64,000 nucleotides of DNA from Microbacterium sp. (GTDB taxonomy: Bacteria > Actinomycetota > Actinomycetes > Actinomycetales > Microbacteriaceae). Position 1 is the first letter of the stretch; each line of letters begins with the position of its first letter. The notes beneath the pieces are model-generated. The model did no database searches, was not told the DNA's origin, and saw nothing but the letters and a program-made list of their open reading frames with translations. The stretch lies in assembly GCF_017305435.1 (NCBI RefSeq), contig NZ_JAFKIP010000002.1, positions 310,001 through 374,000 on the forward strand. The letters run 5' to 3'. The translations under genes were made by a program, and so were the position numbers. Positions 12,960 through 52,178 of this stretch are shown here, one piece after another.

Positions 12960-13568
12960 ATGAGCACCAGAATCGTCCTCGCGACGCACAATCCGCACAA
13001 GGTGGAGGAGTTCGGCGCGATCGTCGCCCGGGTCCGGCCCGACCTCGAGGTCGTCGGCTACGACGGCCCCGAGCCCGTCGAGGACGGGGTCACGTTCGCC
13101 GAGAACGCGCTCATCAAGGCGCGTGCTGCCGCCGCGCACACGGGACTGCCCGCCCTCGCGGACGACTCGGGCATCTGCGTCGACGCTCTCGGAGGGGCGC
13201 CCGGCGCGTTCTCCGCGTATTGGGCCGGTCACCGCAAGGACGACCGCGCGAACCTCGAACTGCTGCTCGATCAGCTCTCCGACATCGCCGATCCGCGGCG
13301 GACCGCCCACTTCACCTCGACGATCGCGCTCGTCGAGCCCGGCGGCGCCGAGCACGTCGTCGAGGGCATCTGGCCGGGCCGCCTCGCGATCGCGCCAGCG
13401 GGCGCCGGTGGGTTCGGATACGACCCGATCTTCATCCCGGACGGCCAGGATGCGGGAGCCGAGCGGACGGCTGGGGAGTTCAGCACCGCCGAGAAGAACG
13501 CGGCATCCCACCGCGCTCGCGCCTTCGTGGCGTTGGCGCCGCTCCTCGCCGCGCTCACCGGCGACTGA
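12960..13568 (+). CDS. rdgB: non-canonical purine NTP pyrophosphatase (RdgB/HAM1)
   Basis: 202 aa. It hydrolyses ITP, dITP and XTP to clean the nucleotide pool. Signatures: VLATHNPHKVEEF at the N-terminus, FAENALIKARAAA, LADDSGICVDAL (catalytic Asp pair), GGFGYDPIF and KNAASHRARAF near the C-terminus. Third gene of the murI-rph-rdgB operon, 27 bp after rph. Confidence 0.94.
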   Translation: MSTRIVLATHNPHKVEEFGAIVARVRPDLEVVGYDGPEPVEDGVTFAENALIKARAAAAHTGLPALADDSGICVDALGGAPGAFSAYWAGHRKDDRANLELLLDQLSDIADPRRTAHFTSTIALVEPGGAEHVVEGIWPGRLAIAPAGAGGFGYDPIFIPDGQDAGAERTAGEFSTAEKNAASHRARAFVALAPLLAALTGD

Positions 13569-37483: not shown

Positions 37484-39070
37484 ATGGACGTGATCATCAC
37501 GGCGGACCGGATCGATGCGGGGCCGTCGGGAGCCCAGGCGCTCGGCATCCGCGACGGACGTATCGTCGCCGTCGGCGACCGCCGCGAGGCGCGCGCCTGG
37601 CGAACGGCACGTACCCGCACGATCGATGTCGGCGACGCCTGTGTGCTCCCGGGATTCATCGACGGTCATTCGCATCCCGTCCTCGGCGCCGACCTGACGC
37701 GAGGTGTCGCCCTGGGCGAGGTGACGACGGTCGCCGAGCTTCAGGCCGCGCTCGGCGCTGCGCACGGCACTCTTCCGCCTGATGTGTGGCTGCACGGCTG
37801 GGGTCTTCGCCCCGATGCGTTGGGCGGTGCCGAGCCGCACCGGCGTGTCATCGACGTCGTCGTCGGCGGCCGGCCGTGCCTGATCCGCACGTTCGACGGC
37901 CACTCCGCGTTGGCCAACGGCGCCGCACTGCGCGCCGCAGGCGTCGTCTCGTCGGTCGCTCTCGAGGGCGAGGCCCAGATCGTGTGTGATGAGCAGGGCG
38001 CGCCGACCGGTTACCTGCGGGAGCCGGCGGCGGTAGCGGTCGTCGAGATGGCCTCTCCTGCAGTGCCCTTCGCCGAGCGGGCACGCGCCCTCCGCGCCGC
38101 CCTCGCGGGGATGGCCCGTGCCGGGCTCACGGCCGTCCACTCGCTCGAATTCCCCGAAGGGGCGGCGGCGTTGTACGAGGCGCTCGAGAGCGAGGGCTCC
38201 TTGCCGGTGCGAGTGCGTGCGATGCCCTGGTGCGAAGCCGACGCGACGCCCGACCGCTGGGCGGAGATCGCCGCGATGCAGTCGCGTGCGGGTCGACGGT
38301 GGCGGGTCGGCGGTGCGAAGCTCTTCCTCGACGGGACGATCGACGACGGCACCGCCTGGCTTTCGGAGCCGGACACGCGGGGAGCTTCGGCGGCCTCGAT
38401 CTGGGCGGATTCACGTGCGTACGCCGCTGCGGTGGCGTGGTTCGATGCGCGCGGCATCGCGACAGCGACGCATGCGATCGGGAACGCCGCCGTGCTCCAG
38501 GCACTCGACGTCATCGACCGCACGCGCCGTGCCCCCCACCGCATCGAGCACATCGAGTACCTATCGGTCGCCGATACGGCGCGCTTCGCGCGCTCACGGG
38601 CGTATGCCGGGATGCAGCCCACGCACGGGACGGACTACGTCGACCCCCTCGGGAGTGACAACTGGTCGATAAGACTCGGTCGCGAGCGTGCCCTTCGCGC
38701 CTGGCCGCTCGGCGACCTCGACGCCGCCGGGGTTGCCGTGGTGCTCGGCTCCGACTGGCCGATCGCGCCCTACGACCCGCGCGCCGTCATCGCGGCCGCG
38801 CACCTGCGCCGACAAGCGGGTCGCCCGTCAGCACCTGCACTTGCGCGATCGCAGGCGCTGTCTGTGCAGAGCGCGATCGACGGCTACACCGTGCGAGCTG
38901 CGGCATCCGTCGCTGATGTCGATGCGGGGCGCATCGCCGTGGGAACCACCGCAGACCTCACCGTGTTCGCTCACGACCCTCGCACGACGGATCTCGACGT
39001 GTTCGCCGATGCGCCGGTCGTGGCGACCATCGTCGATGGCGATCCCGTGCATCTCGCGAACGCGTGGTGA
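37484..39070 (+). CDS. YtcJ-like amidohydrolase
   Basis: 528 aa. Amidohydrolase_3 family: metal-binding H62-S-H64 in GFIDGHSHP, TFDGHSALANG near residue 142, ATHAIGNAAVLQALDVID and RIEHIEYL histidines, and LGSDWPIAPYDPR with the catalytic Asp. The family includes N-substituted formamide deformylases and other cytosolic amidases; no signal peptide is seen. GGAAGAGGG precedes the ATG. By operator sharing it belongs with the permease and M24 protein in one catabolic regulon; the substrate is unknown. Confidence 0.86.
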   Translation: MDVIITADRIDAGPSGAQALGIRDGRIVAVGDRREARAWRTARTRTIDVGDACVLPGFIDGHSHPVLGADLTRGVALGEVTTVAELQAALGAAHGTLPPDVWLHGWGLRPDALGGAEPHRRVIDVVVGGRPCLIRTFDGHSALANGAALRAAGVVSSVALEGEAQIVCDEQGAPTGYLREPAAVAVVEMASPAVPFAERARALRAALAGMARAGLTAVHSLEFPEGAAALYEALESEGSLPVRVRAMPWCEADATPDRWAEIAAMQSRAGRRWRVGGAKLFLDGTIDDGTAWLSEPDTRGASAASIWADSRAYAAAVAWFDARGIATATHAIGNAAVLQALDVIDRTRRAPHRIEHIEYLSVADTARFARSRAYAGMQPTHGTDYVDPLGSDNWSIRLGRERALRAWPLGDLDAAGVAVVLGSDWPIAPYDPRAVIAAAHLRRQAGRPSAPALARSQALSVQSAIDGYTVRAAASVADVDAGRIAVGTTADLTVFAHDPRTTDLDVFADAPVVATIVDGDPVHLANAW

Positions 39071-40624: not shown

Positions 40625-40697
40625 GCACCTCTAGCTCAATCGGCAGAGCAACTGACTCTTAATCAGTGGGTTCTGGGTTCGAGTCCCAGGGGGTGCA
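40625..40697 (+). tRNA. tRNA-Lys (anticodon CUU)
   Basis: 73 nt. Acceptor GCACCTC pairs with GGGGTGC (one U-G), discriminator A at 40697, D-arm AGCTCAATCGGCAGAGC, anticodon stem ACTGA/TCAGT with loop CTCTTAA giving CUU, and T-arm CTGGGTTCGAGTCCCAG. An integrase gene lies immediately downstream pointing at its 3' end, marking it as the prophage attachment gene. Confidence 0.96.
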
Positions 40698-40740
40698 CCG
40701 CTTAGGCCCGAGATCTCAACGATCTCGGGCCTTTTTGCGT
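40655..40740. other. prophage attL region (approximate)
   Basis: Phage genes begin directly after the 3' end of tRNA-Lys, with an integrase on the opposite strand facing it. Tyrosine integrases of this kind usually recombine within the 3' half of a tRNA gene. The exact core cannot be set without attR, which lies outside the window. Confidence 0.5.
40704..40736 (+). terminator. rho-independent terminator after tRNA-Lys
   Basis: A 12-bp perfect stem, AGGCCCGAGATC with its complement, around TCAAC, followed by a T-tract. It would end tRNA-Lys transcription and could also stop leftward integrase-strand readthrough, being symmetrical. Confidence 0.9.
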
Positions 40741-40775
40741 TTCGGGGGAGTCGGCGATAGGTCAGGATCCGGTGT

Positions 40776-41906
40776 TTATCCGGCGTTTTCAAATAGGGAT
40801 TCGATGACTTCTGCGAAGTCCGCGATCTGCCTTTGTCGCTCGATGTAGTAGTCGATGGTGATGTCCTCGTTGCCGTGGCCGAGCTGCTGCGCGGCAGCCT
40901 TCACGCCGACCTCACGATCGAGGTGCGTCGCGACGGCGCGGCGGAAGTCCTTCGGCGTCGCGCCTGCGTAGACCGACCCTTCGAGCGCTTGCCGCCACTG
41001 CCTACGCACGTTCGCCGGCCACCGCCAAGTGCCCGTCGACGAGGGGAACACCTGCTCGTACATCGCGCTCACGCGACGCGCGACGAGCAGACCCCGCATC
41101 GTCGCGGGAAGGGTCAGCGCACGCTCACCGGCTTCGGACTTCGGGTGCTCCTGCCAGTGCAGCTTGCCGTCCTCGCCGACGATGAGGGTGCCGTTGATTT
41201 CGACGACCCCGCTGTCGAGTCTCGTGTCGTGGTCCCATCGGAGCGCGAGGCATTCGCCGATGCGGCAGCCGGTGCCCATGAGCATGCCGGATGTCTCCCA
41301 CAGTTCGGAGGTGTGCGATGCGTCGTACTCGGCGAACAGTTTCCGCATGCCGTGGATGTGGTCGAGGGTCTTCGCTTTCACCGGCTTCTTGGGCGTCGCG
41401 ATCGGCATGGTGTCGGGGACGGGGTTGCGGCTGACGGCGCCGTGGCGGACGGCGAGTTTGAACATGCCGGCGAGGACGATGCGCGCTGTTCGCGCGGCGC
41501 TGGGTCGGTCGAGCATGTTCTTGAGGAAGCGGTCGACGCGAGGCACGGTCGCCTCCGATAGGCGGAGCGCGCCGATGCCGGGCTTGATGTTCGCCTGAAT
41601 CGCGGACCGGTAGGTGACGATCGTTCCCTGCGGCGTCTTCTTCAGTCGGAGCTCTTCGAGCCACTGGTCGGCGAGCTCTGCGATCGTCGACGAGGCGGCG
41701 AGGAGGTCGGTGGACTCGTCGTCGAGCTTCTTCTTCAGCGCGGCGATGAGGTTGCGTTCCGCTTCGGGCTCGGTGCGACCGTTGCGCTGCATCGTGCGGG
41801 TGCGTCCTGAGGAGTCGCGGTAGTTCGCGAACGCCGTCGGCTGCCCGGCGATCGTCGCGCGTCGGATCTTGCCCCACGTCCCGATGAGCAGCGGCGGTCT
41901 AGGCAC
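40776..41906 (-). CDS. int: prophage tyrosine integrase
   Basis: 376 aa from GTG 41906, which begins VPRPPLLIGTWGK as phage integrases of this type do; an ATG at 41972 would add 22 basic residues. N-terminal arm-binding and core-binding domains (~1-170), then the catalytic domain with Arg215 (GTGCRIGECLALRW), Lys256 (HPKSEAG), Arg322, His344 (QLGHGNEDIT) and Tyr353/354 as nucleophile. The HxxR box reads KDFR, so the usual first histidine is Lys319. It integrates and excises the prophage at tRNA-Lys. Confidence 0.94.
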   Translation of the reverse strand: MPRPPLLIGTWGKIRRATIAGQPTAFANYRDSSGRTRTMQRNGRTEPEAERNLIAALKKKLDDESTDLLAASSTIAELADQWLEELRLKKTPQGTIVTYRSAIQANIKPGIGALRLSEATVPRVDRFLKNMLDRPSAARTARIVLAGMFKLAVRHGAVSRNPVPDTMPIATPKKPVKAKTLDHIHGMRKLFAEYDASHTSELWETSGMLMGTGCRIGECLALRWDHDTRLDSGVVEINGTLIVGEDGKLHWQEHPKSEAGERALTLPATMRGLLVARRVSAMYEQVFPSSTGTWRWPANVRRQWRQALEGSVYAGATPKDFRRAVATHLDREVGVKAAAQQLGHGNEDITIDYYIERQRQIADFAEVIESLFENAG

Positions 41907-42020
41907 CGTTGACCGCCCGACGCTGTGCGCCGCTCTCGCGCGTTGTGATCCTGCAGGTGCACGACGACCCATCCGCAGCAGGAACGGCCGGCAGCAGAAC
42001 GTGTGCGGTCTGCTGCGCGG

Positions 42021-42458
42021 TCATACGGCGATCTCCTGCCGATGAAGCCACTGGCCGGCGCCAAGGCGAGGTCGCGCATACGTGACACCACGGAGACGCA
42101 CGAGACATGCCTGCATCCACAGGTTGAGCGCGTCCACGCTGACGCCGAGCTCTTCGGCGATGTCGTGCTGGTGAAGGCCCTGCTGCTCGAGTTCCGCGTA
42201 GCGCTCCGGATTGATCAGCAGCTGCGCCGCGTAGGCGTCTGCCTGATCCTCAGCATCCTGATTGTCTTCGCAGCGGTGCCCGTGGTGAGCGTGCCCAAGT
42301 TCGTGCGCGACGGTGAACACCTGCTCGTCGGGGGACATGCGCAGGTCGAAGTAGACCTCGCGCTCATCCTCGTACCACTCGCCCATGACGCCCGGCTCGA
42401 GACGAGCGGCATGCACGGTGATCCCCAGTCCGGCGGCGAACCGCAGTAGCTCCTTCAT
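42021..42458 (-). CDS. ImmA/IrrE family metallopeptidase
   Basis: 145 aa from ATG 42458, with GAGAGGGGG about 6 nt upstream; a GTG at 42482 overlapping the repressor stop is the alternative. Zinc site HELGH at 52-56 in FTVAHELGHAHHGH, followed by DQADAYAAQLLINPERY, as in ImmA. The C-terminus contains a helix-turn-helix-like stretch (QHDIAEELGVSVDALNLWM). ImmA-type peptidases cleave phage or ICE repressors to trigger induction; the adjacent repressor gene is the obvious target. Confidence 0.9.
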   Translation of the reverse strand: MKELLRFAAGLGITVHAARLEPGVMGEWYEDEREVYFDLRMSPDEQVFTVAHELGHAHHGHRCEDNQDAEDQADAYAAQLLINPERYAELEQQGLHQHDIAEELGVSVDALNLWMQACLVRLRGVTYARPRLGAGQWLHRQEIAV

Positions 42459-42478
42459 CGAGACCCCCTCTCGTTGTT

Positions 42479-42895
42479 TCACTCGGCGTGCGGCGCCTGC
42501 GCGGCCTTCGTCTCACCCTTGCGGGCTGCCGTGCGCTGCTTCTTCGGCGGCTGCTTCATCGTCGGCTCATCCTCAACCGGGGCGCCGACATTCGATCCGA
42601 AGTTGCCCTCGATCAGCTCGCCGCGCGGGGTGCGACGGGACTCTGCTCTGCGGGAGAGCTCGAGCATCAGCGTGAGGCCATCCCACTCAGGAACGAGCGA
42701 CGCGAGCGCGTCGACATCGTTCGTGTCGAGGGCCCGCTTTCCGTTCACGCGCTCGGACACGTACCCCTCGCCTCGATCAAGGACCGCCGCGATCTGTGCT
42801 CCCGAGACGGAGTGCGCCTTCATGAAGCCCTTGTACTCAGCCGCGAACGCGAGGGCGAAGTCAGTCATCCGTGGAAACTCAGCAGCCATGTTCAC
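42479..42895 (-). CDS. prophage repressor (HTH)
   Basis: 138 aa from GTG 42895 or 136 aa from ATG 42889. An HTH occupies about residues 30-56 (VSGAQIAAVLDRGEGYVSERVNGKR). The C-terminal part (95-138) is Lys/Ala/Pro-rich and lacks a LexA-like peptidase domain, so induction is probably not by RecA-driven self-cleavage. It is in an operon with the ImmA/IrrE-like peptidase and faces the lytic genes across the operator region. Probably the immunity repressor. Confidence 0.85.
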   Translation of the reverse strand: MNMAAEFPRMTDFALAFAAEYKGFMKAHSVSGAQIAAVLDRGEGYVSERVNGKRALDTNDVDALASLVPEWDGLTLMLELSRRAESRRTPRGELIEGNFGSNVGAPVEDEPTMKQPPKKQRTAARKGETKAAQAPHAE

Positions 42896-48618: not shown

Positions 48619-49010
48619 TGTTCGCCAGCAAGACGCCCCGCGACCTCAACCACGACGCCCACCCGTGGGCGCACACGGCGTGCGGTTACGAGTGGTGCGA
48701 TGACTTCGGCGGTCGGTTCTCGTTCAACAACGGCACCGGCAACGAGTTCTCGCCCCGCCGCGAGTTCGATCACGTCCAGCACAATGAGCCGAACCCGATC
48801 CTCGTGCGATTCCGCAAATGGATCGAGGGTGAAGAGCTCGCTGACCCGCACTGGGTCGATCAGTGGATCGTCGCGCTTGATCAGCTTGATGCGTTCGGCG
48901 GGTTCGTCGAGTGGGACGAGCCCAGCAGCCCGTTCCACGTGCTCACCACGGCGTCGCCGGAGCAGATCGCCCACGCGCGGCGCGTATTCAACCTCCTGGT
49001 GGTGAGCTGA
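48615..49010 (+). CDS. hypothetical phage protein (131 aa)
   Basis: 131 aa from GTG 48615 (or ATG 48618). His/Trp/Asp-rich N-terminus (HDAHPWAHTACGYEWCDDFGG) and a C-terminal helix. No known domain. Its TGA overlaps the next ATG by one base. Confidence 0.66.
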   Translation: MMFASKTPRDLNHDAHPWAHTACGYEWCDDFGGRFSFNNGTGNEFSPRREFDHVQHNEPNPILVRFRKWIEGEELADPHWVDQWIVALDQLDAFGGFVEWDEPSSPFHVLTTASPEQIAHARRVFNLLVVS

Positions 49011-49411
49011 TGGGCGCCGGTGACTTCACCCCGGCGATCGTCCGGAAGGCGTTCTTCGATCGGGAACGCGAGGCGTGCTTCGTCTGCCGGCGCGGGCTCC
49101 GCTGGGAAGGCCGCGGCGTCGAGTGGTCCGCGCACCACCGGAAGCCGCGCGGCGCCGGCGGGACGTCGGACCCGCGCATCGGGTCGATCGCGAACCTCCT
49201 GATCGTGTGCGGGTCGGGCACCACGGGATGCCACGGCCGGATTGAACGGAACCGCGAGATCGCGCTGCGGGTGGGGCTCCTGATCCCCACGAACGCGACC
49301 ACAGAGACTTTCGCGCCCGCAGCTGTGCGGGTGCGCCGACTGGACAAGACGTGGTGGCTGCTCACGGAGAGCGGCCGCGCCGTCGAGGTAGAGGAAGGAA
49401 TACCGCAGTGA
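49010..49411 (+). CDS. HNH endonuclease-like protein
   Basis: 133 aa from ATG 49010. Treble-clef zinc site C23xxC26 (CFVC) with C67 and C74-H75 (NLLIVCGSGTTGCHGRI), and His42-His43 in SAHHRKPRG as the catalytic pair, Asn62 as the middle residue of the HNH set. Probably a nicking or cleaving endonuclease; in this position it may act in replication or recombination. Confidence 0.8.
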   Translation: MGAGDFTPAIVRKAFFDREREACFVCRRGLRWEGRGVEWSAHHRKPRGAGGTSDPRIGSIANLLIVCGSGTTGCHGRIERNREIALRVGLLIPTNATTETFAPAAVRVRRLDKTWWLLTESGRAVEVEEGIPQ

Positions 49412-50211
49412 GCGAGCAAGGCGTGCCGATCGAGGAGGCGACGGCGAAGGACTTCATGCAGGTCCGAGCGGCGCTCGTGCGGCGCCTGGGCGGCGCGAAC
49501 GAGGCGCTCGTCTGGACGCGGATCGACTGGCGGGCAGACTCTGCGAAGGTCGCTCATCAGACGCAGGATGGCACGCACTGGTGGGCCGCGACGCATGGGG
49601 AGATCGCGGATGAGACGGGCCTGTCGGCGGAGCAGGTGCGACGCGCGATCGAGAAGTTGGTCGTCCGTGGTTTCCTCCGCGAGGACGCTCATCACGGGTT
49701 TGATCGTCGGAAGAGTTACGCCCCGATCTACGCCCATCTGGCGGATTCGCCAAATGGCGAGATCGCCAGATCGAAGCGGCGAAATCGCCAGATGGAACTG
49801 GCGGATTCGCCAGATGGCTCCTCTTCTATAGAGAGACAAGAACGAGACGTAGAAGACAGCGATTCGAAGGCCGATCTCGCTCTCTTCGAAGCCCCATCGA
49901 TCGTGGTCTCGGGGCCGTCGTTCGATGACTTCTGGGCGGTGTGGCCGAAGAAGGTTGCCAAGCCGGATGCGCAGCGCGCGTGGGCCAAGGCGGTGAAGCA
50001 GACGCCTGCGACGCAGATCGTCGATGCGGCTGTCGCGTACCGCGACAACCCCGGCCGCCCTGAGAGGCAGTTCATCCCGTACCCCGCGACGTGGCTGAAC
50101 CGCGAGGGGTGGAATGATGAGCTCCCCTCGAGGGCCTCGGCGCCGATGGATCGTGCTCGGGATGTCCTCGACCTGGGTCGTCAGATGGCCGCTGAACGGG
50201 CGGCGTCATGA
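49408..50211 (+). CDS. phage replication initiator with iteron-coded linker
   Basis: 267 aa from GTG 49408. The N-terminal winged helix (residues ~28-105; WWAATHGEIADETGLSAEQVRRAIEKLVVRGFL) is typical of DNA-binding replication proteins. Residues 110-137 are a linker with a duplicated LADSPxG unit, encoded by four 18-bp repeats. The C-terminal part has DDFWAVWPKKVAKPDAQRAW and FIPYPATWLNREGWND, common in phage replication proteins. The layout resembles lambda O: wing, origin-coding linker, helicase-contact domain. A DnaB-like helicase gene follows 0.7 kb later. Confidence 0.82.
   Translation: MSEQGVPIEEATAKDFMQVRAALVRRLGGANEALVWTRIDWRADSAKVAHQTQDGTHWWAATHGEIADETGLSAEQVRRAIEKLVVRGFLREDAHHGFDRRKSYAPIYAHLADSPNGEIARSKRRNRQMELADSPDGSSSIERQERDVEDSDSKADLALFEAPSIVVSGPSFDDFWAVWPKKVAKPDAQRAWAKAVKQTPATQIVDAAVAYRDNPGRPERQFIPYPATWLNREGWNDELPSRASAPMDRARDVLDLGRQMAAERAAS
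49740..49817 (+). repeat. four 18-bp iterons, candidate prophage replication origin
   Basis: GGCGGATTCGCCAAATGG (49740-49757), GGCGAGATCGCCAGATCG (49756-49773), GGCGAAATCGCCAGATGG (49778-49795) and GGCGGATTCGCCAGATGG (49800-49817). Each has an inverted GGCGnnnTCGCC core. Starts are spaced 16, 22 and 22 bp, about two helical turns. An AT-richer, purine-rich stretch follows (49818-49870). Lies inside the initiator gene. Confidence 0.72.
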
Positions 50212-50528
50212 ACGTTGAGCAGATCACCGCGCTGCTGATGCGGATGCAGATCATCGACCAGCGTCCGGTCGACCGGGCCGTTGTCCTCGAGTGGGAGGCG
50301 GATCTCGTCGGCGTCGACGACTTCGCGGCTGCGATGGAAGCGATCACGATGCACCGGTCCGAGTCGGCTGCACGACTGATGCCGTTCCACATTCGTCAGG
50401 GCGTCGAGCGGATCCATGCAGCTGCTCTGCCACGCGAGGACGAGTGGGGGAACCGGCTGGAACCCGACCGCGTCGCCGTGGCCGCACTTGAACGGCTCGG
50501 CCGCGTGCCTCGGGAGGTGACGGCATGA
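50208..50528 (+). CDS. hypothetical phage protein (106 aa)
   Basis: 106 aa. Helical; MNVEQITALLMRMQIIDQRPVDRAVVLEWEADL at the start resembles the small proteins that often follow phage initiators and may act as helicase loader, but no motif proves this. Coupled to both neighbours by ATGA overlaps. Confidence 0.68.
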   Translation: MNVEQITALLMRMQIIDQRPVDRAVVLEWEADLVGVDDFAAAMEAITMHRSESAARLMPFHIRQGVERIHAAALPREDEWGNRLEPDRVAVAALERLGRVPREVTA

Positions 50529-50740
50529 GCGTCGTGGTCGCGTTCGCGGACATCGCGCAGCTCAGGCCGTTCGATCCGATCTCGTTCGAGAGCCCGCTTG
50601 GCAGCGTCTCCGGGTACGTCTCCGAGGTCGTGCCCGGAGAGCACGTCTCCATCATGACCGGCGGCAGTCAGGCCACTACTCGGATCACTGCTGAGTCCTG
50701 CGAGCACGGCGTGCTCACGATCCCGGAGGTGGCGTCGTGA
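50525..50740 (+). CDS. small phage protein (71 aa)
   Basis: 71 aa. Beta-rich (SFESPLGSVSGYVSEVVPGEHVSIMTG), no catalytic motif. ATGA and GTGA overlaps. Unknown role within the replication module. Confidence 0.63.
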   Translation: MSVVVAFADIAQLRPFDPISFESPLGSVSGYVSEVVPGEHVSIMTGGSQATTRITAESCEHGVLTIPEVAS

Positions 50741-50937
50741 GGGCGCTGTTCGAGTCGGTCTGCGGTGACTGCGACGAGAAGATCCGAACGGGTGAGGAGA
50801 TCGCCCGCACGGATCGCGGCGCGTGGGCGCACGTGGTGTGCCCGCCGTCGAAGCTCGACCTTCAGCGGCCTGTGTGCACGGTGTGCTTCACGGAGATCTC
50901 GGTGTCCGGTGCGTGCATGTGCGGGGCAGCGTCATGA
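50737..50937 (+). CDS. small zinc-ribbon protein (66 aa)
   Basis: 66 aa from a GTG. Seven cysteines: CGDC near residue 9, a CPP, CTVC near 47 and a CMC near the end, with one histidine, fitting one or two zinc ribbons. Directly precedes the helicase gene with a 4-nt overlap. Confidence 0.67.
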   Translation: MRALFESVCGDCDEKIRTGEEIARTDRGAWAHVVCPPSKLDLQRPVCTVCFTEISVSGACMCGAAS

Positions 50938-52178
50938 GCGAGAACGACGACGCTTACGCGGACGCGGCTCCGGCGCCCGTGTCGACGGGTGCGCTGCACG
51001 AGCGGTTCGTACTCGGCGCTGTCATGTCGGATCCGAGGGTGCTGCGGGACGTGCAGGCCGAGGTGGTTCCGTCGGACTTCGAGGATCTCCGTCTCGCCGC
51101 GATCTACCGGGGCATCATTGGGATGGTCGCGGCGGGGGAGGGCGTCGACTACCTCTCCGTCTACGACCATCTCCGCGACTGGGACGTCCGCGGCGCCGGG
51201 TACGACATCACCGACCTGGCCCGGTGGGTGCAGGAAGTCCCGACGACAGCGAACGTCGGGTTCTACGCCCGCCAGGTCCGTGAACGCGCGCTCGCCCGAT
51301 CACTCGCCACCGTCGGCCGATCGTTGACGGACGCGACCGAGCCCGGCGTGGTCCTCCAGGACGCGATCACCCGACTGACCGAGATCCGCGACCGCGACAC
51401 GCACACCTCGACGCCGGCGCGCACCCTGCGGGAGATCCTCGCCGTGCCGGAGGAGGAGGACACGTACGACTGGGTGATCCCCGACGTCGTGGAACGCCGC
51501 GACCGGCTCATGCTGACGGCTGGTGAGGGTGTCGGGAAGTCGGTGATGCTCCGGCAGCTCGCGGTGCTCCCCGCCGCTGGCATCCACCCGTTCACGTTCG
51601 GCATCGTGGAACCGATCCGTGCGCTCGTCGTCGACGTGGAGAACAGTGAACGGCAGTGGCGGCGTGCGATCCGCCGCATGGCCGACGAGGCCGCGATGCG
51701 CGGCCGCCGCGACCCCCGTGATCACGTCGCTGTCGAGTTCCTCCCGAAGTCGGACATCACGCAGGCGCAGATCCTCGGAGGCATCCACCGCCGCATCGAC
51801 GAAGTGCAACCCGACCTCGTCGTCGTCGGGCCCCTGTACCGGCTGGCGCCGGCGATGAAGGACGAGGAAGACGCCGCACCCGTGCTTGAGGCGCTCGACT
51901 CCATCCGGGAGCGGGGTGTCGCGATGCTCATCGAAGCGCACGCCGGTCACGAGACGTCTCGCAGCGGTATCCGCAATCTGCGGCCCCGCGGGTCGTCCGC
52001 GCTCCTCGGATGGCCGGAGTTCGGGCTGGGTCTGCAGAAGGACAAGGAGACCTCGTCGTACGGCGGGTTCCAGAAGTACTCGCTCGTCAGGTGGCGAGGA
52101 GACCGAGACGCGCGCCCGTTCCCGGCGAAGTTCGTGCGCGGGCAGACGTGGCCGTGGGAACCGCTCGCTGGCTACTGA
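50934..52178 (+). CDS. DnaB-like replicative helicase
   Basis: 414 aa from ATG 50934. The N-terminal DnaB domain (~18-115; ERFVLGAVMSDPRVLRDV...YLSVYDHLRDW...FYARQVRERAL) is followed by a RecA-like ATPase: Walker A AGEGVGKS at 196-203, ALVVDVENSERQWRRAIRRM, and Walker B PDLVVVGPLYRL. The C-terminal motor resembles the RepA/AAA_25 type rather than canonical DnaB. It would be loaded by the initiator encoded upstream. Confidence 0.88.
   Translation: MSENDDAYADAAPAPVSTGALHERFVLGAVMSDPRVLRDVQAEVVPSDFEDLRLAAIYRGIIGMVAAGEGVDYLSVYDHLRDWDVRGAGYDITDLARWVQEVPTTANVGFYARQVRERALARSLATVGRSLTDATEPGVVLQDAITRLTEIRDRDTHTSTPARTLREILAVPEEEDTYDWVIPDVVERRDRLMLTAGEGVGKSVMLRQLAVLPAAGIHPFTFGIVEPIRALVVDVENSERQWRRAIRRMADEAAMRGRRDPRDHVAVEFLPKSDITQAQILGGIHRRIDEVQPDLVVVGPLYRLAPAMKDEEDAAPVLEALDSIRERGVAMLIEAHAGHETSRSGIRNLRPRGSSALLGWPEFGLGLQKDKETSSYGGFQKYSLVRWRGDRDARPFPAKFVRGQTWPWEPLAGY

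Follow-up and report, generated by a model that had tools for sequence, protein, structure and literature searches.

By sequence analysis, we found that the replication initiator gene of this prophage carries four GGCGnnnTCGCC repeats in its linker-coding part, starting at 49740, 49756, 49778 and 49800. We read them, at a probability of about 88%, as the iterons of a prophage origin that lies inside the initiator gene and would be bound by the initiator's own N-terminal domain, in the manner of lambda O, SPP1 gp38 and pSK41 Rep. The N-terminal winged helix would bind the four iterons, probably as one dimer per dyad. The initiator-bound array would open the AT-richer, purine-rich stretch directly 3', and the C-terminal domain would then recruit the downstream helicase, perhaps with a 106-aa protein as loader.

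The prophage initiator gene and its repeats

Besides an integrase, an HNH gene and a replication module, the prophage in the window (the whole 64,000-nucleotide stretch of DNA analyzed) has regulators and genes resembling exonuclease VIII and RecT. The following genes and domains are relevant here.

40625-40699: tRNA-Lys, beside the integrase gene
40776-41972: integrase gene, adjoining tRNA-Lys
42021-42482, minus strand: metallo-protease gene (PHROG 87), near the prophage regulators
49010-49411: HNH endonuclease gene, overlapping the initiator start
49408-50211, plus strand: replication initiator gene, 267 aa, GTG start (PHROG 270 'replication initiation protein', E 8.4e-27)
49447-49731, plus strand: predicted N-terminal winged-helix DNA-binding domain, aa 14-108 (AlphaFold2 model)
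49735-49902, plus strand: low-confidence linker, aa 110-165 (pLDDT <50), whose DNA contains the iterons
49921-50205, plus strand: C-terminal helical domain of exchangeable type, aa 172-266 (AlphaFold2 model and homology boundaries)
50208-50528, plus strand: ORF for a 106-aa protein between initiator and helicase (PHROG 8924, function unknown, E 2.2e-5)
50937-52178, plus strand: replicative helicase (DnaB N-domain PF00772, E 3.4e-15; AAA_25 PF13481, E 1.8e-19)

The junction between tRNA-Lys and the integrase gene (40625-41972) is the likely prophage attachment site, and the metallo-protease at 42021-42482 is presumably ImmA/IrrE-like. The HNH region (49005-49423) resembles phage record MT835840, and HNH genes likewise lie upstream of the initiators in the Gordonia phages Catfish, TinaLin and Goib.

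The original prediction had described an initiator composed of a winged helix, a linker and a C-terminal domain, followed by a helicase gene. The AlphaFold2 model agrees with the three-part protein, and a helicase gene does lie downstream, but not immediately so: the 106-aa ORF and another stretch lie in between. Judged by position alone, the 106-aa protein is a possible helicase loader. Among the families listed for the helicase, the DnaB N-domain and AAA_25 were present and the DnaB C-domain was absent. The GTG start of the initiator was inferred by aligning homologues. Its PHROG 270 match spans residues 54-246 and covers both the winged helix and the C-domain; the C-domain also matches PHROG 9474 and 9327 and is presumed to contact the helicase or a loader. 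Winged-helix elements lie within aa 21-106 (pLDDT of 73-96 over the block of residues 21-110), and in PDB searches (Foldseek, VIA-align) this domain came closest to Rep/initiator N-domains, with generic winged helices of the CRP type level with them. Pfam and NCBIfam matches of the initiator were weak and mainly of the HTH type, with none reaching the cut-off, and PF06970 (RepA_N initiators) was absent from the 14 families matching it at E up to 1.

Searches with the initiator's first 151 aa returned no relatives at E 0.01 among 50,697 phage records and 72,556 plasmid records. Within the genus, an N-domain profile matched 25 of 366 genomes at E 0.001 (8, including the window's own, at 1e-41 or better) and, within the family, 16 of 398 (5, including its own, at 1e-15 or better); in the order, one of 396 genomes matched at 1e-6, which was its own. 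Weaker matches in genus and family (E 6e-5 to 1e-3, helix-turn-helix part) were left unused. One genome of the same GTDB genus as the window genome, G086, encodes an initiator identical to that of L003 (Microbacterium sp. 2FI).

Exact copies of GGCGNNNTCGCC occur at 49740, 49756, 49778 and 49800, which confirms the 16-22-22 spacing that had been predicted within the linker-coding part. The elements of the proposed origin are as follows.

49738-49755, plus strand: iteron 1, core in codon frame 2, read LADSPN
49754-49771, plus strand: iteron 2, core in codon frame 0, read GEIARS
49776-49793, plus strand: iteron 3, core in codon frame 1, read RRNRQM
49798-49815, plus strand: iteron 4, core in codon frame 2, read LADSPD
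49820-49880, plus strand: AT-richer, purine-rich stretch, candidate unwinding element (GC minimum 0.50), including TATAGAGA at 49827-49834

With an 18-bp unit, copies 1 and 2 share 2 bp. The 12-bp core gave 18 strand-matches in the window against a shuffle mean of 7.0, and 18 was reached in none of 100 shuffles. The single core is also present at ten further places in the window; therefore, it is the cluster that is special and not a lone core. In the 3.5-Mb assembly, matches to the 18-mer CTGGCGNNNTCGCCAGAT with 0-1 mismatch are three of the four repeats only. The remaining repeat (49776) has 2 mismatches, and outside the repeats there were 9 matches at 2 mismatches, against 13 for a control pattern. 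A long reverse ORF (48988-49839, minus strand) is probably spurious, and its repeated peptide WRIRQ arises from the iterons.

Iterons can serve several functions, and the array might be an accessory site for incompatibility, partition or handcuffing, with the true origin elsewhere. SPP1 provides a precedent in that it has a second, similarly organized origin, oriR (PMC6316719). However, the search for 18-mer matches at 0-1 mismatch gave no second array anywhere in the genome, and the AT-rich flank adjoins this same array. We consider an accessory role highly improbable and read the array as part of the origin itself.

An AT-richer stretch had been predicted to follow the repeats, and GC at 49820-49879 (0.50) is indeed the lowest among 60-nt windows sampled across 49300-50300. 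Additionally, the 60 nt 3' of the last iteron had a mean GC of 0.53 versus 0.68 for the rest of the gene and were lower in 16 of 16 N-type genes, a set with manually set iteron ends and three near-duplicate pairs. The TATAGAGA motif is common to L003 and L004, in differing codon frames by codon alignment. By eye, the purine-rich strand at 49827-49880 and its homologues in L004, L067, L072 and L073 contain short repeats such as AAGAAC and RAGACA, and these possibly belong to the unwinding element.

The flank also bears on whether the repeats are merely sites through which the initiator or another regulator controls transcription, with no origin involved. Dyad operators of HTH proteins look alike, and binding alone would also yield the silent-site conservation and cassette inheritance described below. 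However, the sites begin 330 bp into the gene. The 18-mer has one match elsewhere in the window, at 13381 with 3 mismatches, and the 12-bp core is absent from 49739 back to 45340. Furthermore, all 16 genes have the AT-rich flank, and the gene itself encodes an initiator and lies upstream of a helicase gene. For these reasons, transcription control alone is an unlikely account of the repeats, and we prefer an origin.

Conservation of the repeats as DNA

Disappearance of the repeats from close homologues would have spoken against the original prediction, but they persist there, at silent sites too. Across six genes (the window's and those of L003, L004, L008, L065 and L090), compared in 15 pairs that are not independent, codons at shared residues were identical in 244 of 272 cases within the iterons. 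For the N-domain the figure was 752 of 1249, and for the codons 3' of the iterons it was 403 of 614. The difference between iterons and N-domain reached the floor of the test (p = 1e-5, columns permuted 100,000 times). The four iteron cores use all three codon frames (2, 0, 1, 2). These results argue that the repeats are conserved as DNA and not as peptide.

Repeats in a gene could also be the by-product of a repetitive peptide linker, and LADSP is present twice in this peptide. However, translation of this one DNA motif gives LADSPD, GEIARS and RRNRQM. The densest repeat cluster of the window initiator, which starts at aa 108, beat all 300 synonymous-codon shuffles. The use of three frames, together with 0 of 300 shuffles reaching the window's clustering, ruled out the peptide-repeat reading.

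The arms of the repeats were recognizable at offsets 0, 16, 38 and 60 (imposed by the script) in 7 of 7 close genes, namely the six above and L091. The dyads are approximate and not strictly kept. In L065 and L091, GGCA replaces GGCG in each of the four left arms, with the matching TGCC in 5 of 8 right arms. In iteron 2 of L003, L004 and L008, the right arm is TGCC and the left arm is unmatched; in L008, the right arm of iteron 3 is altered; and in L090, three left arms are CGCG with right arms unchanged.

Such dyads might act as mRNA hairpins that control stability or translation. Predicted folding did beat shuffles in the window (z -7.0), L003 (-5.2), L004 (-4.3) and L072 (-3.8). However, among the six sequences folded, the excess was slight in L065 (z -1.3) and in L057 (z -1.4), and the topology varied between one long stem (window, L004) and two separate hairpins (L003). 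We give a hairpin function very little credence in comparison with binding sites for the initiator.

Repeat arrays and cassette boundaries in related initiators

When 47 related initiator genes were put through a codon-aware repeat test, 33 reached the test floor (25 of 37 in a first set and 8 of 10 in a fresh set). The counts are not independent, since the genes are relatives of one another, picked by hand from sequences similar to the window protein or its relatives. In the first set, the floor was p 0.003, and 33 of 37 genes had p <= 0.05; L006 (p 0.09), L071 (p 0.11), L091 (p 0.16) and L060 (p 0.46) were not significant. The last (L060:2270-2977) is an initiator relative in Gordonia phage Catfish without a significant array. 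The densest cluster started at aa 91-143 in 36 of 37 genes, the exception being L044 (aa 215).

The 37 hand-chosen genes were the window's, 7 from phage records and 29 others, with duplicates such as L005/L039, which are the same locus. Six came from viral contigs; the rest belong to Arthrobacter, Mycobacterium and Gordonia phages or to genomes within the genus or family. Excluded as same-locus duplicates were L001, L007, L009, L010, L036-L038, L064, L066, L068, L070 and L086-L089. The viral loci L013-L021, L023-L033 and L035 have short frames (79-144 aa) with a WPKK-type C-domain and no in-frame N-domain and were also excluded, as were L002, L022, L034, L047, L049, L050, L052, L054 and L056. 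Phage records were hand-picked for diversity (17 of 102 used). The fresh set of ten comprised phage initiators from Gordonia (four), Arthrobacter (three), Rhodococcus, Mycobacterium and Bacillus (one each). Its two genes above the floor had p values of 0.023 (Bacillus) and 0.013, and its clusters started at aa 105-154.

Of 41 genes taken as controls from the phage loci and from the window, one (an SSB gene, L114) reached the cluster floor and none reached the lag-22 floor. Lambda O, used as a positive control, was at the floor, and its cluster began at aa 109. Of the neighboring genes, P had a p value of 0.51, cro 0.13 and ninB, which is truncated by the end of the stretch, 0.013. Counting palindromes gene by gene brought only 8 of 37 genes to p 0.05, and this measure was not used. 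Some counted arrays may be simple tandem repeats, for example, in L120 and as GGAACAGAGGAACAG in L051 and L061.

The strongest repeat distance was 22 bp. After removal of six near duplicates from the 37, lag 22 gave 141 against 18.8 in 31 genes (z 21), and 17 of 31 genes lay above all 100 shuffles; next came lag 11 (z 12), followed by lag 16 (z 10, three genes). Arrays with a 22-bp step, which is not divisible by 3, cannot stem from a peptide repeat. When each of 11 N-domain classes (35% identity over 50 aa) was represented by a single gene, 22 bp again led (z 10.1), ahead of 11 bp (z 8.5). A clustering at E 1e-3 had put 41 of 47 genes into a single class and was discarded. Eight of the 11 classes reached the cluster floor and five the lag-22 floor, so the 22-bp spacing is not universal. 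In the fresh set, lag 22 alone was at the floor in 3 of 10 genes and lag 11 in 4 of 10.

More distant relatives carry different palindromes at the same place (L042, L067, L069, L071, L072 and L074). L042 has two copies of TGTCGAATTCGACA; of the two in L044, one is exact and the other altered. There are three copies of TGCCCTCAGGGGCA in L069 and in L092, and L074 has the same 14-mer plus close forms; the N-domains of L074 and L069 are just 33% identical, yet they have this palindrome in common. L072 has CGGGCGAATATGCCC, and L073 has the same sequence with one arm changed. The palindrome of L067 is of a GGGG/CCCC form, and L071 has two copies of GCGGCGAATCCGCCG.

We searched for cassette boundaries with blastn (E 1e-4), using 48900-50900 as the query against 16 relatives. 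In the N-domain relatives L003, L004, L008, L065, L090 and L091, the match ends at 49834-49848, and L003 has an additional, separate match at 49945-50122. The match of L067 ends at 49659, and L042 gave no blastn match. In the C-domain relatives, the HNH match ends at 49401 (L005, L039, L041), 49393 (L006), 49236 (L011) or 49092 (L043); L040 and L045 gave no HNH match by blastn. Their match restarts at 49909-49921 (L005, L006, L011, L039, L040, L041, L043) or 50059 (L045), with none between the HNH end and the C-domain restart. These boundaries show that the winged helix and iterons travel as one cassette:

49408-49834, plus strand: exchangeable cassette of winged helix, iterons and start of the AT-rich element (homology boundaries of N-type and C-type relatives)

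In the same comparison, the HNH gene stays beside differing initiator cassettes.

In two relatives, a lambda-O-type C-domain follows an N-cassette akin to that of the window: L067 (4001-4807) and L091 (1498-2349), the latter with an N-domain 66% identical to the window's. In single BLASTP comparisons, their C-domains align with lambda O 220-274 (L067, E 4e-14) and 225-270 (L091, E 1e-9), and O-like PHROG profiles agree. Cassettes of this type have thus been combined with two or more kinds of C-domain, and by these alignments L067 and L091 link actinobacterial and lambdoid initiators.

On balance, we lean slightly toward a broader model for actinobacterial phages and prophages. The winged helix, lineage-specific iterons (often at a 22-bp, two-turn pitch that shifts the codon frame) and unwinding element would form a portable origin-specificity cassette. 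Recombination would swap it between conserved flanks, the HNH gene upstream and the helicase-contact domain downstream, so that related prophages would differ in origin specificity and winged helix and half-sites would co-vary.

Comparison with known in-gene origins

Lambdoid phages differ in O-ori specificity. Lambda is described with four 18-bp iterons and a 38-bp AT-rich sequence within O (PMC3349717), and each lambdoid iteron is described as an inverted repeat (PMC7466680). In the NC_001416 annotation, the iterons start at 39034, 39054, 39078 and 39101 in gene O. Set against this annotation, the parallel with the lambda origin that had been drawn from repeat position, number, dyad symmetry and AT-rich flank is well supported. 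Both genes have four 18-bp inverted-repeat iterons in mid-gene (aa 117-145 of 299 in lambda, aa 111-136 of 267 in the window) read in several codon frames, with the AT-rich part 3' and an N-terminal DNA-binding domain, which is predicted in the window. However, the iteron sequences differ, as do the spacings (20-24-23 in lambda, 16-22-22 in the window) and the C-domain types, and the window has its own helicase gene downstream. PHROG profiles recognized no lambda P-like loader at the window locus.

The original prediction had also called the sequences unrelated by eye to those of lambda, and this needs qualification. For the window protein itself, hhalign against lambda O gave only a non-significant N-domain stretch, its C-domain had no match to the profiles matched by the C-domain of lambda O, and PF04492 (the lambda O family) was not matched among families up to E 1, compared with E 5.7e-36 for lambda O itself. 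On the other side stand the lambda-O-type C-domains of L067 and L091 and three O-like PHROG profiles that match the window initiator across its N-domain (E 1.2e-5 to 3.4e-5).

Other systems are likened to the window by their published descriptions. SPP1 oriL lies within gene 38 (PMC6316719), where, as in the window, direct repeats and an AT-rich unwinding element (a candidate element in the window) sit within the initiator gene; this phage encodes a helicase loader and a DnaB-family helicase (PMC6316719). pSK41 Rep binds four boxes inside rep, and pPR9 represents a natural swap of N-domain and origin for a phage-like N-domain (PMC5703833). RepA_N initiators resemble the window in having repeats within rep and an N-domain/linker/C-domain layout. 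The mycobacteriophage RepA origins (Miko, Rachaly, Jeeves) are set apart by description, as they belong to extrachromosomal prophages and no repeated motif is reported for the region studied there. For Microbacterium phages, the literature titles and abstract openings searched contained no description of an in-gene origin arrangement, and the main text of PMC7302621 has 0 occurrences of "replication," "origin of replication" and "iteron."

The mechanism itself is familiar from lambda, SPP1 and pSK41, and the plasmid pPR9 offers a precedent for cassette exchange. As in-gene origins are already known in lambda, SPP1 and pSK41-type plasmids, a single further case adds no new principle. The pattern is, however, visible by a simple codon-aware test in most related initiator genes tried (33 of 47 at the floor). 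It gives origin predictions for phages or prophages of Arthrobacter, Gordonia, Mycobacterium, Rhodococcus and Microbacterium and offers a reason for the repetitive linkers in actinobacterial phage initiators. Winged helices that occur in nature with different palindromes are material for studies of recognition and origin compatibility, and if the cassette reading is true, the recognition code could be read off natural variation.
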